IMG/VR virus record: IMGVR_UViG_3300042502_001580
Span: 1-22,999 of that record
DNA length: 22,999 nt
Strand: one strand, 5' to 3'
Source: a virus
Below the pieces are notes generated by a model that was not told the origin of the DNA, ran no database searches, and saw only the letters and a list, made by a program, of their open reading frames with translations. The position numbers were made by a program, and so were the translations under genes. This document shows positions 1,426 through 10,344 of the stretch, in pieces (within the stretch, counting starts at the first letter, position 1; each line of letters begins with the position of its first letter).

Positions 1426-1468
1426 TTTATTATCTCCAGGTTGAGGTTTTGGGCAAGATTGCCGTTGA

Positions 1469-1519
1469 TACTTATCAGTAAGTACATGTTATTATACTGC
1501 AACAAAATGCGTATGTAAA
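1469..1519 (-). promoter_or_regulatory. Leftward promoter P1 with 5'-terminal hairpin
   Basis: On the - strand: -35 TTTACA (1514-1519), a 17-nt spacer, -10 TATAAT (1491-1496). The predicted start is near 1484. A perfect inverted repeat TACTTA-CTGA-TAAGTA occupies 1469-1484, so the RNA would begin with a stem-loop. The -35 is followed by TA, giving TTTACATA as in P2 and P3. It drives the gene at 1425 and possibly those beyond. Confidence 0.7.
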
Positions 1520-3601: not shown

Positions 3602-3678
3602 CAGAATACCCCATAAATTAATTTATTGTGTACATAAAAGTTTTTATAGGCTATAATATATTTGAATATCTTAGACAT
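3601..3678 (-). CDS. 25-residue leader peptide ORF coupled to the primase-helicase
   Basis: A short ORF beginning MSKIFKYIIAYKNFYVHNK and ending at a TGA that shares one base with the primase-helicase ATG (TGATG). It has one of the best ribosome-binding sites in the region (GAGGAG, 8-9 nt before the ATG), while the primase start has none as good, so ribosomes probably load here and reinitiate. The peptide is aromatic and basic with no recognised family. It may matter only as a translational relay, or be a real small protein. Confidence 0.55.
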   Translation of the reverse strand: MSKIFKYIIAYKNFYVHNKLIYGVF

Positions 3679-3703
3679 TTGATATTTCTCCTCGAAGGTG
3701 TTT

Positions 3704-3743
3704 AGTCCGTTTAGCCTCTTGTTAAACTAAACGGACTTTTTTT
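3704..3743. terminator. Strong hairpin with 11-bp perfect arms; T-run on + strand side
   Basis: Arms AGTCCGTTTAG (3704-3714) and CTAAACGGACT (3727-3737) around a 12-nt loop, followed on the + strand by seven T. In form it is a rightward intrinsic terminator, yet no rightward gene precedes it. In leftward RNA it lies in the leader of the primase-helicase message, downstream of the GIY-YIG gene, with an A-run before it and no U-run after it. Just upstream of it (leftward) is an AT-rich stretch with TATAAT at 3756-3761 but a poor -35, so a weak primase promoter is possible. It may protect or separate leftward transcripts, or stop antisense transcription. Confidence 0.6.
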
Positions 3744-3789: not shown

Positions 3790-4227
3790 TTATTTTTGTG
3801 GTCTATCCAGCCTTTTTCTTTGCGCAATGCTTTGGTTTAGCCTTGTTTCTTTTGACAATGGTTTGCCAGTTCGTCGAGCTATATGCAACTTTTTGTTATG
3901 CTCCATTTTCATAGCGTTTAAACCATTATACCCTTTTGGGAATACGGTATCTTTGTCTTTTATTAAGCATTTTTTAAGTACCCTTAAGTCTGCTAAAGAT
4001 CCAGTTGCATAAATAATTACTTTAGCAATACCAAAGTCTCTGTAGGCATAATCAATAGGTCTATTTCTTTTAGTTTTAGAAAACCATTTTATGTTATTAA
4101 TTATTTTTTGAATAGTCATGTAACTTGATATTCCATAATATAATTTACCATCGCCAAATGTTATTTCGTATAAAAATGGTTCTGGTAATTCGTTTTTAGG
4201 TGGTGCTATGTTAGCCTTAATCATCAT
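3790..4227 (-). CDS. GIY-YIG nuclease-like protein with NUMOD3-like tail
   Basis: A 145-residue protein. Residues 19-33 read LYEITFGDGKLYYGI, which fits the two beta-strands of a GIY-YIG domain (YEI, then YYG about ten residues later). The later segment VLKKCLIKDKDTVFPKGYN fits the helix and GYN turn, but the catalytic Glu expected four residues before the Ile is Lys, so activity is doubtful. Residues about 118-140 (GKPLSKETRLNQSIAQRKR) resemble a NUMOD3 DNA-binding repeat, as in phage homing endonucleases. It is free-standing and overlaps the preceding gene by 11 nt. Probable role: a mobile-intron-type or stand-alone homing nuclease, perhaps decayed. Confidence 0.68.
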   Translation of the reverse strand: MMIKANIAPPKNELPEPFLYEITFGDGKLYYGISSYMTIQKIINNIKWFSKTKRNRPIDYAYRDFGIAKVIIYATGSLADLRVLKKCLIKDKDTVFPKGYNGLNAMKMEHNKKLHIARRTGKPLSKETRLNQSIAQRKRLDRPQK

Positions 4228-7325: not shown

Positions 7326-7475
7326 TTACTCCCAGCCTTGGTCACGTATTGAGGTTTCAACTATTGCCAATGCTTCTACTTGGCGAATAGCATTTAAGCC
7401 AATTCCACTATTATATGTGGTGTCTATAAAACTTAACAACAGTACAACTACTAAACATTTCAATATAAAATTCAT
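7326..7475 (-). CDS. Small membrane or secreted protein
   Basis: A 49-residue protein, MNFILKCLVVVLLLSF then a polar tail ending SIRDQGWE. The start is a hydrophobic helix that could be a signal peptide or membrane anchor. I place the start at 7475 because AGGAG lies 8 nt upstream in a leader that is nearly identical to that of the DUF3102 gene; an upstream in-frame ATG at 7511 lies inside the promoter-leader hairpin. It is the first gene of the long leftward operon behind promoter P2. Confidence 0.6.
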   Translation of the reverse strand: MNFILKCLVVVLLLSFIDTTYNSGIGLNAIRQVEALAIVETSIRDQGWE

Positions 7476-7503
7476 TATTATTCTCCTGGTTGGTTTGTTA
7501 CAG

Positions 7504-7560
7504 TGAGCCATGTTTGCACATGACTCAGATAATTATAAACTCATTAAGCGAATATGTAAA
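7504..7560 (-). promoter_or_regulatory. Leftward promoter P2 with 5'-terminal hairpin
   Basis: On the - strand: -35 TTTACA (7555-7560), 17-nt spacer, -10 TATAAT (7532-7537), predicted start near 7525. An inverted repeat at 7504-7527 (TGAGTCATGT / ACATGGCTCA, 4-nt loop, one G-U pair) begins at the predicted start. The stretch TTTACATATTCGCTTAATG is shared exactly with P3, and so is the downstream leader CCAACCAGGAGAATAATA. Confidence 0.78.
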
Positions 7561-7563
7561 CCG

Positions 7564-7833
7564 CTACTGGACTAACTTAATTTCTTTAAGCATCACCTTG
7601 TAAATCTGCGCTCGCCTATTCACTGGGTACAACGCATCTTGTGCCTCAAGCATCTGCTTCCAGTAGTCACGTTGCTCCTTAGGTAATGAACCTATTGCTA
7701 GTAGCAGGATATTACGAGCATACGGTGTAGCCTTGATGCGTTCAGCCTTACGGGCTTGAAGTGCCTCTGCTAAGCACTTGGATTCTTTATTAATTTTAGC
7801 TATTAAATGGGCCCTTTGTTCTGCTTTGGTCAT
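7564..7833 (-). CDS. Hypothetical phage protein in the DUF3102 operon
   Basis: An 89-residue basic helical protein: an N-terminal stretch rich in Lys/Ala (MTKAEQRAHLIAKINKESK), then TPYARNILLLAIGSLPKEQ and YWKQMLEAQDALYP. I do not recognise a family. It overlaps the DUF3102 gene by 4 nt (ATGA), so the two are probably coupled and may act together. It ends 3 nt before the -35 of promoter P2, so no terminator separates it from the next unit. Confidence 0.65.
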   Translation of the reverse strand: MTKAEQRAHLIAKINKESKCLAEALQARKAERIKATPYARNILLLAIGSLPKEQRDYWKQMLEAQDALYPVNRRAQIYKVMLKEIKLVQ

Positions 7834-8621
7834 AGTGACGATAACTCCTCTTGCAATGCTACTAGAGCTTTGTTATGTATTGCCACCTGGTCAGAATGCC
7901 ATTTGATTTGCGCAAGCACTAATGTCTTACGATCTGATAAACCCCCGGCATTTGACTTCAAAGCTTCTATTTCGTTTTGCTTACGCACTAGGTCTTTTTG
8001 AAGCTCTTTGTTAGGGTCTTTGGCTTGGCTTGCATTCTTAAGCTCCATAATATGCTTAAGTTTATCTTTCATCATGGTAGCGCGAAGTGAGTCCATTTCT
8101 CTACGTATAATGGCTATTTTCTGGCTATCACGGTCGTGTTGAGATAACTCAATTTCCAGGGCTCTGATGGTGTCCATGTGTTTCTTGTTTTGCACGCGCC
8201 AGTCTTCAGTACGTTTCTTCTCTTCTATTAGTGCACGCTCAACTTGAGCAAGTTTAGTTATTTCTTCTCGCACTAGGCTATCATCATTAATCACTTGCTC
8301 CATTGTATCCGGAGCACCTAACGCCAAGAACAACTTACTAAGCTTGACATTAGACAAATCAGTTCGTAAACTAATATTGCCATGCTCTTTGGCCAACTTA
8401 ATATACTTATTGGCATTGCCTGGATTTACGCTAGTGTTCACCGTTACCCAAGGCATGAATTCACCATGCGGTAGAATTGCTTTTACTTTGCCTAACTCGC
8501 GCCCAAGCTCTATTGCCATTAACACAGTTAAACCTTTTAAATGCTCAAGTTGGGCAGACTTATAATTAATTGACTCAATATACTGGCTTGCTTGCTTTTG
8601 TAATGCATTAGTTGTTGACAT
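7830..8621 (-). CDS. DUF3102-like protein with long coiled coil
   Basis: A 263-residue protein. Residues about 25-85 fit DUF3102: GRELGKVKAILPHGEFMPWV followed by NANKYIKLAKE. Known DUF3102 proteins occur in phages and mobile elements; their role is uncertain though the N-terminal part resembles DNA-binding regions of plasmid and phage proteins. Residues about 120-255 are a charged coiled coil (for example RALIEEKKRTEDW, LQKDLVRKQNEIEALK), pointing to dimerisation. The start has AGGAG 8 nt upstream and lies in the P3 leader. As the first gene behind a strong promoter next to the dyad-rich region, a replication or regulatory role is reasonable inference. Confidence 0.75.
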   Translation of the reverse strand: MSTTNALQKQASQYIESINYKSAQLEHLKGLTVLMAIELGRELGKVKAILPHGEFMPWVTVNTSVNPGNANKYIKLAKEHGNISLRTDLSNVKLSKLFLALGAPDTMEQVINDDSLVREEITKLAQVERALIEEKKRTEDWRVQNKKHMDTIRALEIELSQHDRDSQKIAIIRREMDSLRATMMKDKLKHIMELKNASQAKDPNKELQKDLVRKQNEIEALKSNAGGLSDRKTLVLAQIKWHSDQVAIHNKALVALQEELSSL

Positions 8622-8645
8622 TATTATTCTCCTGGTTGGTTACAT

Positions 8646-8701
8646 TATGGTGCATTACATACACCATACATAATTATAATCACATTAAGCGAATATGTAA
8701 A
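8646..8701 (-). promoter_or_regulatory. Leftward promoter P3 with 5'-terminal hairpin
   Basis: On the - strand: -35 TTTACA (8696-8701), 17-nt spacer, -10 TATAAT (8673-8678), predicted start near 8666. An inverted repeat TATGGTG / CACCATA with a 9-nt loop spans 8646-8668, at the 5' end of the transcript. It shares the -35 and spacer with P2 but its hairpin sequence is unrelated. Confidence 0.78.
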
Positions 8702-9134
8702 CCGTGCATATTGGCTTAATGTTTAAACGATAGTAGCGAAAACATATTTTACTAATAACAAAATGGATATGAAGCCATATGAAGCCAAATCTGTCTCAAT
8801 TACTCGAAAACGAGTAGTAATAAACTAAACAGTAGTAGTAGTTGAGTAATTCTAAGTTACTGATTTATAAGAATTATTTCACATACTTACTATCGTTCTA
8901 TCGATTCGCGCGAAAAAAGTTTTAAGTTTATATATATAGCTATATATTATTTAACAGTTTTTATTAAATATTAAATAGTAAGATAGATTTAAGACTAAGT
9001 CTTACAAAACAATAACTTACACAGCCCAATTTGTAGACACAAATCTGACTACTACTGGCAAAATTTCGTCAAAAGTCACGCAATCAGTAAAATATGTGTG
9101 TACTTTCGACGAAATTTATGCACCTCGAGGTTAT
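8702..9134. other. Non-coding, dyad-rich AT-rich region (candidate replication origin or control region)
   Basis: No convincing ORF. It holds many inverted repeats: AACGATAGTA (8726-8735) with its complement at 8888-8897; ACTCG-AAAA-CGAGT near 8804; the palindrome TTCGCGCGAA (8905-8914); ATATATAGCTATATAT near 8935; AAGACTAAGTCTT; ATTTGT-AGAC-ACAAAT near 9030; and the 16-bp arms at 9061-9117. There is also a direct repeat of ATATGAAGCC near 8767-8787. The mix of dyads and AT-rich stretches beside replication-type genes fits an origin; this is inference only. Confidence 0.45.
9061..9117 (-). terminator. Large inverted repeat, possible leftward terminator
   Basis: Arms of 16 nt (9061-9076 and 9102-9117, core AAATTTCGTC / GACGAAATTT) around a 25-nt loop. 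The single non-complementary position is an A-C clash in rightward RNA but a G-U pair in leftward RNA, so the structure is intact for transcripts of the 9135 gene just upstream. The tail is only UUU then GCC, so termination would be weak; it could also be part of an origin. Confidence 0.45.
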
Positions 9135-9855: not shown

Positions 9856-9912
9856 ATCAGTTAGATTATCTAAGTGATGAGCTATATTATCATTAATCAA
9901 TTCAGTTGTACA
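9856..9912 (-). promoter_or_regulatory. Leftward promoter-like element in repeat copy 1, with 5' inverted repeat
   Basis: On the - strand: -35-like TGTACA (9907-9912), 17-nt spacer, -10-like TAATAT (9884-9889), predicted start near 9877. An inverted repeat with 11-nt arms and one mismatch (ATCACTTAGAT / ATCTAACTGAT) spans 9856-9878. Its 5' arm is mostly inside the repeat unit and its 3' arm is outside. It would drive the gene at 9812. Confidence 0.5.
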
Positions 9913-9944
9913 CATTTATTTTACCTTAATGATTAAATAATTTA
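9868..9944. repeat. 77-bp direct repeat, copy 1
   Basis: Near-identical to 9971-10047 with period 103. Only two bases differ by eye (GATGAG/GATGAT and CAATTC/CAATGC). Each copy carries arms ATCATTAA / TTAATGAT and a leftward promoter-like sequence. Confidence 0.9.
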
Positions 9945-9962
9945 TTCTTTAATATATACGCA

Positions 9963-10015
9963 ATCACAATATCTAAGTGATGATCTATATTATCATTAAT
10001 CAATGCAGTTGTACA
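9963..10015 (-). promoter_or_regulatory. Leftward promoter-like element in repeat copy 2, with 5' inverted repeat
   Basis: Same -35-like TGTACA (10010-10015) and -10-like TAATAT (9987-9992) as copy 1, predicted start near 9980. A different inverted repeat, ATCAC / GTGAT with a 9-nt loop, spans 9963-9981; its 3' arm again lies outside the repeat unit. Confidence 0.45.
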
Positions 10016-10047
10016 CATTTATTTTACCTTAATGATTAAATAATTTA
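9971..10047. repeat. 77-bp direct repeat, copy 2
   Basis: Second copy of the 77-bp unit, separated from copy 1 by 26 bp of unrelated AT-rich sequence. Both lie in the divergent control region between leftward and rightward genes. Confidence 0.9.
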
Positions 10048-10315: not shown

Positions 10316-10344
10316 TGTACAAAACTCTAAAACCGTGCTATAGT
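10316..10344 (+). promoter_or_regulatory. Rightward promoter for the packaging and late genes
   Basis: -35-like TGTACA (10316-10321), 17-nt spacer, -10 TATAGT (10339-10344) with an upstream TG giving an extended -10 (TGCTATAGT). The predicted start is near 10351, leaving a leader of about 58 nt to the terS ATG; the leader holds a small GAGTC/GACTC hairpin. It shares TGTACA with the two leftward repeat promoters. Confidence 0.55.

Follow-up and report, generated by a model that had tools for sequence, protein, structure and literature searches.

The window analysed here is an entire IMG/VR record (IMGVR_UViG_3300042502_001580) of 22,999 bases and covers a portion of a tailed-phage genome. Its early half is oriented leftward and encodes a primase/helicase (phrog_1156 match, E=1e-22; domains DUF3854 and DUF5906) and many small genes, with a thymidylate-synthase-like gene, whose reading frame was inspected by eye, at the left edge of the window. 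The structural half is oriented rightward and comprises the terminase and the portal and capsid genes, these last two being assigned from position and size. By terminase identity the closest named phages are Vibrio phage vB_ValP_VA-RY-3 (56.5%) and Cronobacter phage vB_CsaP_Ss1 (54.9%), while the nearest contigs are L007, L004/L009 and G001 (IMGVR 3300037493_003139). A homing-endonuclease-like gene (3790-4227, minus strand; phrog_314, E=1e-6) adjoins the primase gene.

Three promoters, designated P1, P2 and P3, are the best sigma-70 matches within the first 12 kb of the window. Each of them scores 11/12 with a 17-nt spacer, and their boxes read TTTACATA with TTTACA-17-TATAAT on the minus strand. 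When viral contigs were scanned for the exact P2/P3 box, only G001 and L004 (3300042549_006653) were recovered, and no further close relatives. Since promoter and leader are common to both, P2 and P3 are related copies, the arms of which differ. The coordinates of these and other features are collected in Table 1.

Table 1. Promoters, hairpins and associated features of the window.
Feature	Position	Strand	Description
Promoter P1	1491..1519	-	TTTACA-17-TATAAT; orthologue in G001 at L058:5360
P1 hairpin	1468..1485	-	GTACTTA-CTGA-TAAGTAT, 7 bp, starts 5 nt after the -10 box; gene 1150-1425 downstream
Promoter P2	7532..7560	-	TTTACA-17-TATAAT
P2 hairpin	7504..7527	-	TGAGTCATGT-GCAA-ACATGGCTCA, 10 bp, starts 4 nt after the -10 box
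61-aa ORF	7326..7511	-	Program-listed start 7511 inside P2 hairpin; ATG led by a Shine-Dalgarno site at 7475 (49 aa)
Promoter P3	8673..8701	-	TTTACA-17-TATAAT
P3 hairpin	8646..8668	-	TATGGTGTAT-GTA-ATGCACCATA, 10 bp, starts 4 nt after the -10 box; 263-aa gene 7830-8621 downstream
Claimed first repeat-borne promoter	9856..9912	-	Weak, imperfect hairpin; unsupported
Claimed second repeat-borne promoter	9963..10015	-	5-bp hairpin; unsupported
Promoter-like site of probable small RNA	3629..3657	+	TGTACA-17-TATAAT
Probable small RNA, ~80 nt	3664..3743	+	Hairpin GAATATC..GATATTTC (3664-3687, at +1), then terminator stem (3704-3737) with T run

A first-pass annotation of this DNA had claimed an inverted repeat just after the -10 box of each of the three promoters, and this is borne out at offsets of 5, 4 and 4 nt. 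The stems (7, 10 and 10 bp) are slightly longer than it stated. These offsets lie within the usual range of transcription start, the start sites being predicted ones. In the AT-rich window, repeats of 5-6 bp are frequent, and such DNA past a TATAAT might yield repeats by itself, which the annotation had named as a possible refutation. The 60 nt downstream of each promoter were shuffled with dinucleotides preserved, and sequences with a stem as long at offset 3-6 were counted. Equal stems were rare (P1, p=0.0044; P2, p=0.0002; P3, p=0.00095), and stems of at least 7 bp at all three promoters were found in 0 of 5,000 shuffled sets. The predicted 5' ends of P1-P3 fold at -9.9 to -13.8 kcal/mol, the P1 value counting a second small hairpin; the P2 hairpin (-13.8 kcal/mol) was equalled by none of 200 shuffles. 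Shuffles, the slid controls and a set of 226 unrelated promoters having identical boxes all fall far below the observed rates and refute chance or composition for P1-P3 and their relatives, the repeat-borne sites excepted; we regard it as a very improbable explanation.

The scan of relatives for a promoter with an inverted repeat near +1, as the annotation had proposed, covered 1.34 Mb and yielded 88 distinct sites in which TATAAT is combined with a good -35 box. At these sites, stems of at least 8 bp start mostly 4-6 nt past the -10 box and almost never at 9-15 nt, with the counts at offsets 4, 5 and 6 overlapping because sub-stems of one 10-bp stem are tallied at each. Among the sites with the exact boxes (n=33), nine bear a stem of 8 bp or longer at offset 3-6, versus 0.14 expected. 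By our own count, all eleven intergenic promoters of this quality in the window, L004 and G001 have a stem there, a number that takes in L058:1360 (8-bp stem with a structured apex) and the two promoters of the probable small RNA. In a list of 17 hairpins that we compiled, the standard deviation was 0.8 nt for the arm start, which is bounded by the search window and owes part of its small spread to that, 2.7 nt for the dyad centre and 5.4 nt for the arm end.

Two orthologous promoters of Ss1 and VA-RY-3 also bear hairpins (-12.6 to -16.2 kcal/mol), the arms of which differ between the phages. At the SS1_45/gp22 promoters the stem starts 4 nt past TATAAT in both phages, with ATCCGGTCAG..CTGGCCGGAT in one and AGCCGTTCTGGTA..TGCTAGTGCGGCT in the other; at the SS1_40/gp26 promoters it starts 6 and 4 nt past TATAGT and TATAAT, with CTAGCCCG..CGGGCTAG and GCCTACTCTA..TAGGGTAGGT, respectively. 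Other promoters in these two phages have no such hairpin. An unusual -35 box, TAGACG or TAGACT, combined with a good -10 box recurs in VA-RY-3 and Ss1 (L082:15625; L083:790 and 1006, minus strand).

The base rate was determined on TTTACATA-15-TATAAT sites from unrelated viral contigs and bacterial genomes, which gave the 226 control promoters. In 3/114 viral and 4/112 bacterial promoters a stem of 8 bp or longer was present at offset 3-6, about the rate at control offsets (0 to 2). Because unrelated promoters stay at background, the hairpin is a trait of this lineage and not of phages generally, and the phage-wide rule of capped early mRNAs that the annotation had put forward is rejected. The hairpin is not universal even inside the lineage: the near-consensus promoters L065:1096, L067:19323 and L073:4475 of G005, G006 and G009 lack it, and the presumed late promoter at window position 10316 has no hairpin at +1.

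Covariation of the arms between relatives, another check suggested at the outset, was studied in an alignment of six P2/P3-family promoters, all that could be aligned, which come from three genomes. All 60 base-pair cells are paired (60/60), and 8 of the 10 pairs have changed on both sides. The covariation score of 0.69 was matched by 0/500 shuffles, and pairing falls to 22-43% when the partner is slid by 1-3 columns. The imperfect cells consist of five G-U and no A-C. The L004 orthologue of P2, TGAAGTATAC-AAA-GTATGCTTCA, differs from P2 by double changes at four pairs, and the MNFILKCL gene lies downstream of both. In L004 (6201-6263), one promoter precedes two tandem hairpins, the second of which, CATGGTGTG-TAA-CGCGCCATG, is similar to the window's P3 hairpin; a comparison by eye shows double changes and G-U exchanges between the two. 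The outermost pair of the P1 hairpin is G-U in the window and A-U in the G001 orthologue.

That selection acts on the fold at the predicted 5' end of the RNA, rather than on an operator sequence in common, is well supported, since the arms covary, orthologous promoters carry exchanged arms and the arm start is fixed. This is the reading that the first-pass annotation had favoured, and the arms of P1, P2 and P3 are in addition mutually unrelated within one genome. The P2 arm TGAGTCAT has no second occurrence within the window, and a single operator shared by the three promoters is rejected for the window. The palindromes could instead be DNA operators at which dimeric phage or host repressors, a different one for each promoter, would bind just past the -10 box and block initiation. 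A palindrome over +1 does occupy the classical operator position, and several promoters of the genus share TGAAG or TGAGTCAT arms; against this stand the unrelated arms of P1-P3, the uniqueness of the P2 arm in the window, and an arm length and centre that vary around a constant start. The non-Watson-Crick cells of the P2/P3 family are, moreover, all G-U on the RNA strand. In a strand-neutral count restricted to strong promoters at offset 4-6, a subset picked after the data had been seen, G-U outnumbers A-C by 7:0; this subset alone was used because the pooled count over all sites, with weak, coding and offset-0 sites taken in, is 13:10 and not significant. In favour of operators, the palindromes of G005, G006, G009 and G010 start directly past the -10 box and have two double changes, both in outer pairs predicted to be untranscribed. 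An operator is possible in this subgroup because its palindromes extend into DNA that is presumably not transcribed. Overall we judge operators to be rather unlikely, and the RNA reading is adopted for the hairpin class of the window.

With respect to function, host sigma-70 polymerase would transcribe from P1-P3 and start 5-7 nt past the -10 box, so that the transcript would open with a 7-10 bp hairpin lying at most 1-2 nt from its first nucleotide. An unstructured leader and the Shine-Dalgarno site would come next. Most stems begin 1-2 nt ahead of the commonest start position (the 7th nt), and the outer one or two pairs may therefore be untranscribed. Such a paired 5' end would withhold the single-stranded terminus needed by RppH and by the 5' sensor of RNase E, and early mRNAs denied to these enzymes would presumably live longer. 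The hairpin probably moves with its promoter as a cassette, and may additionally keep the Shine-Dalgarno region free. In the predicted folds the Shine-Dalgarno site is mostly unpaired, being touched just by weak helices of two or three pairs. Folded 5' ends with a nearly free Shine-Dalgarno region therefore make 5'-terminal stabilisers against RppH/RNase E decay the best explanation of the P1-P3 hairpins, one that we consider probable. The chances seem about even that the lineage has made a covarying 5'-terminal hairpin standard in its host-polymerase promoters, as a structural cap that includes one probable small RNA, with arms renewed fast while the fold is kept.

The same position at the extreme 5' end of operon mRNAs, and the mostly open Shine-Dalgarno site, would also suit an RNA signal to the transcription or translation machinery, acting either in antitermination or as an insulator by which the ribosome-binding site would stay open irrespective of the sequence upstream. 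The put RNA antitermination sites of phage HK022 are stem-loops of specific sequence in early transcripts near the promoter, and the hairpins of P1-P3 share with them this location in early phage transcripts. However, put keeps its primary sequence, whereas arms and loops vary here, without a conserved sequence for polymerase or protein to read, and the window has no Rfam match; insulation, for its part, does not require a stem that starts at +1. We hold such a signal to be unlikely, and retain stabilisation as the preferred function.

A hairpin is also tied to early phage promoters in N4, in which the virion RNA polymerase recognises a hairpin of single-stranded DNA as the promoter itself, while the hairpins of P1-P3 lie downstream of complete sigma-70 boxes. 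Closer to the present case are the E. coli ompA and papA mRNAs, in which a stem-loop stands at the 5' end, ahead of the Shine-Dalgarno site, and the terminus is barely or not at all unpaired. These are, however, single host genes, as opposed to a repeated phage promoter cassette whose arms diverge between copies and for which stabilisation is a prediction. In phage T7, a stem-loop in the gene 10 leader raises mRNA abundance and expression (PMC6146998). This is likewise a phage mRNA with a stem-loop in its 5' leader, but gene 10 is a late gene with a T7 polymerase promoter, whereas the promoters here are host sigma-70 ones of presumed early genes, and the hairpins are many and divergent. Stabilisation by 5' hairpins is thus already known as a mechanism. 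A literature search covering few subscription journals found no report of a recurrent phage promoter-hairpin cassette, and as a recurrent, sequence-free element of the promoters of a phage lineage the hairpin appears to be new, within the journals covered. Protection of early mRNAs from host 5'-end-dependent decay has been little studied in phages that use the host polymerase, and a review on T4 names the role of RppH as yet to be investigated (PMC3014915). The question is directly testable, as natural hairpins with different arms on matched promoters exist also in Ss1 and VA-RY-3. The elements further provide ready promoter-hairpin cassettes and a route to start-site prediction in uncultured phages.

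The annotation had extended the arrangement to two repeat-borne promoters, which is not supported. Both sites lack TTTACATA and TATAAT, the best reading being TGTACA-17-TAATAT (8/12), and they form weak hairpins of -3.6 and -4.8 kcal/mol, of which one has a C-C mismatch. The arms are conserved in sequence in relatives, with no covariation. With weak boxes and weak, invariant hairpins, these sites are rejected as members of the hairpin class. Positions 9867-9944 and 9970-10047 form a direct repeat whose two copies are nearly identical and contain weak promoter-like boxes; L004 and L007 also have two copies each, and G001 has one.

The probable small RNA runs counter to the primase leader and is conserved in G001, where the terminator stem has changed from GTTTAG/CTAAAC to GCTTAG/CTAAGC with pairing kept. 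An Rfam search of the window gave no match at the gathering score, and the low-scoring ones represent chance; the small RNA shows a weak, sub-threshold resemblance to RF02278 (E=0.09). A long inverted repeat, AAATTTCGTCAAAAGT..ACTTTCGACGAAATTT, is located at 9060-9118 between P3 and the next leftward genes. Apart from a variable middle it is conserved in L004 and G001, and it is possibly an origin or a regulatory site.
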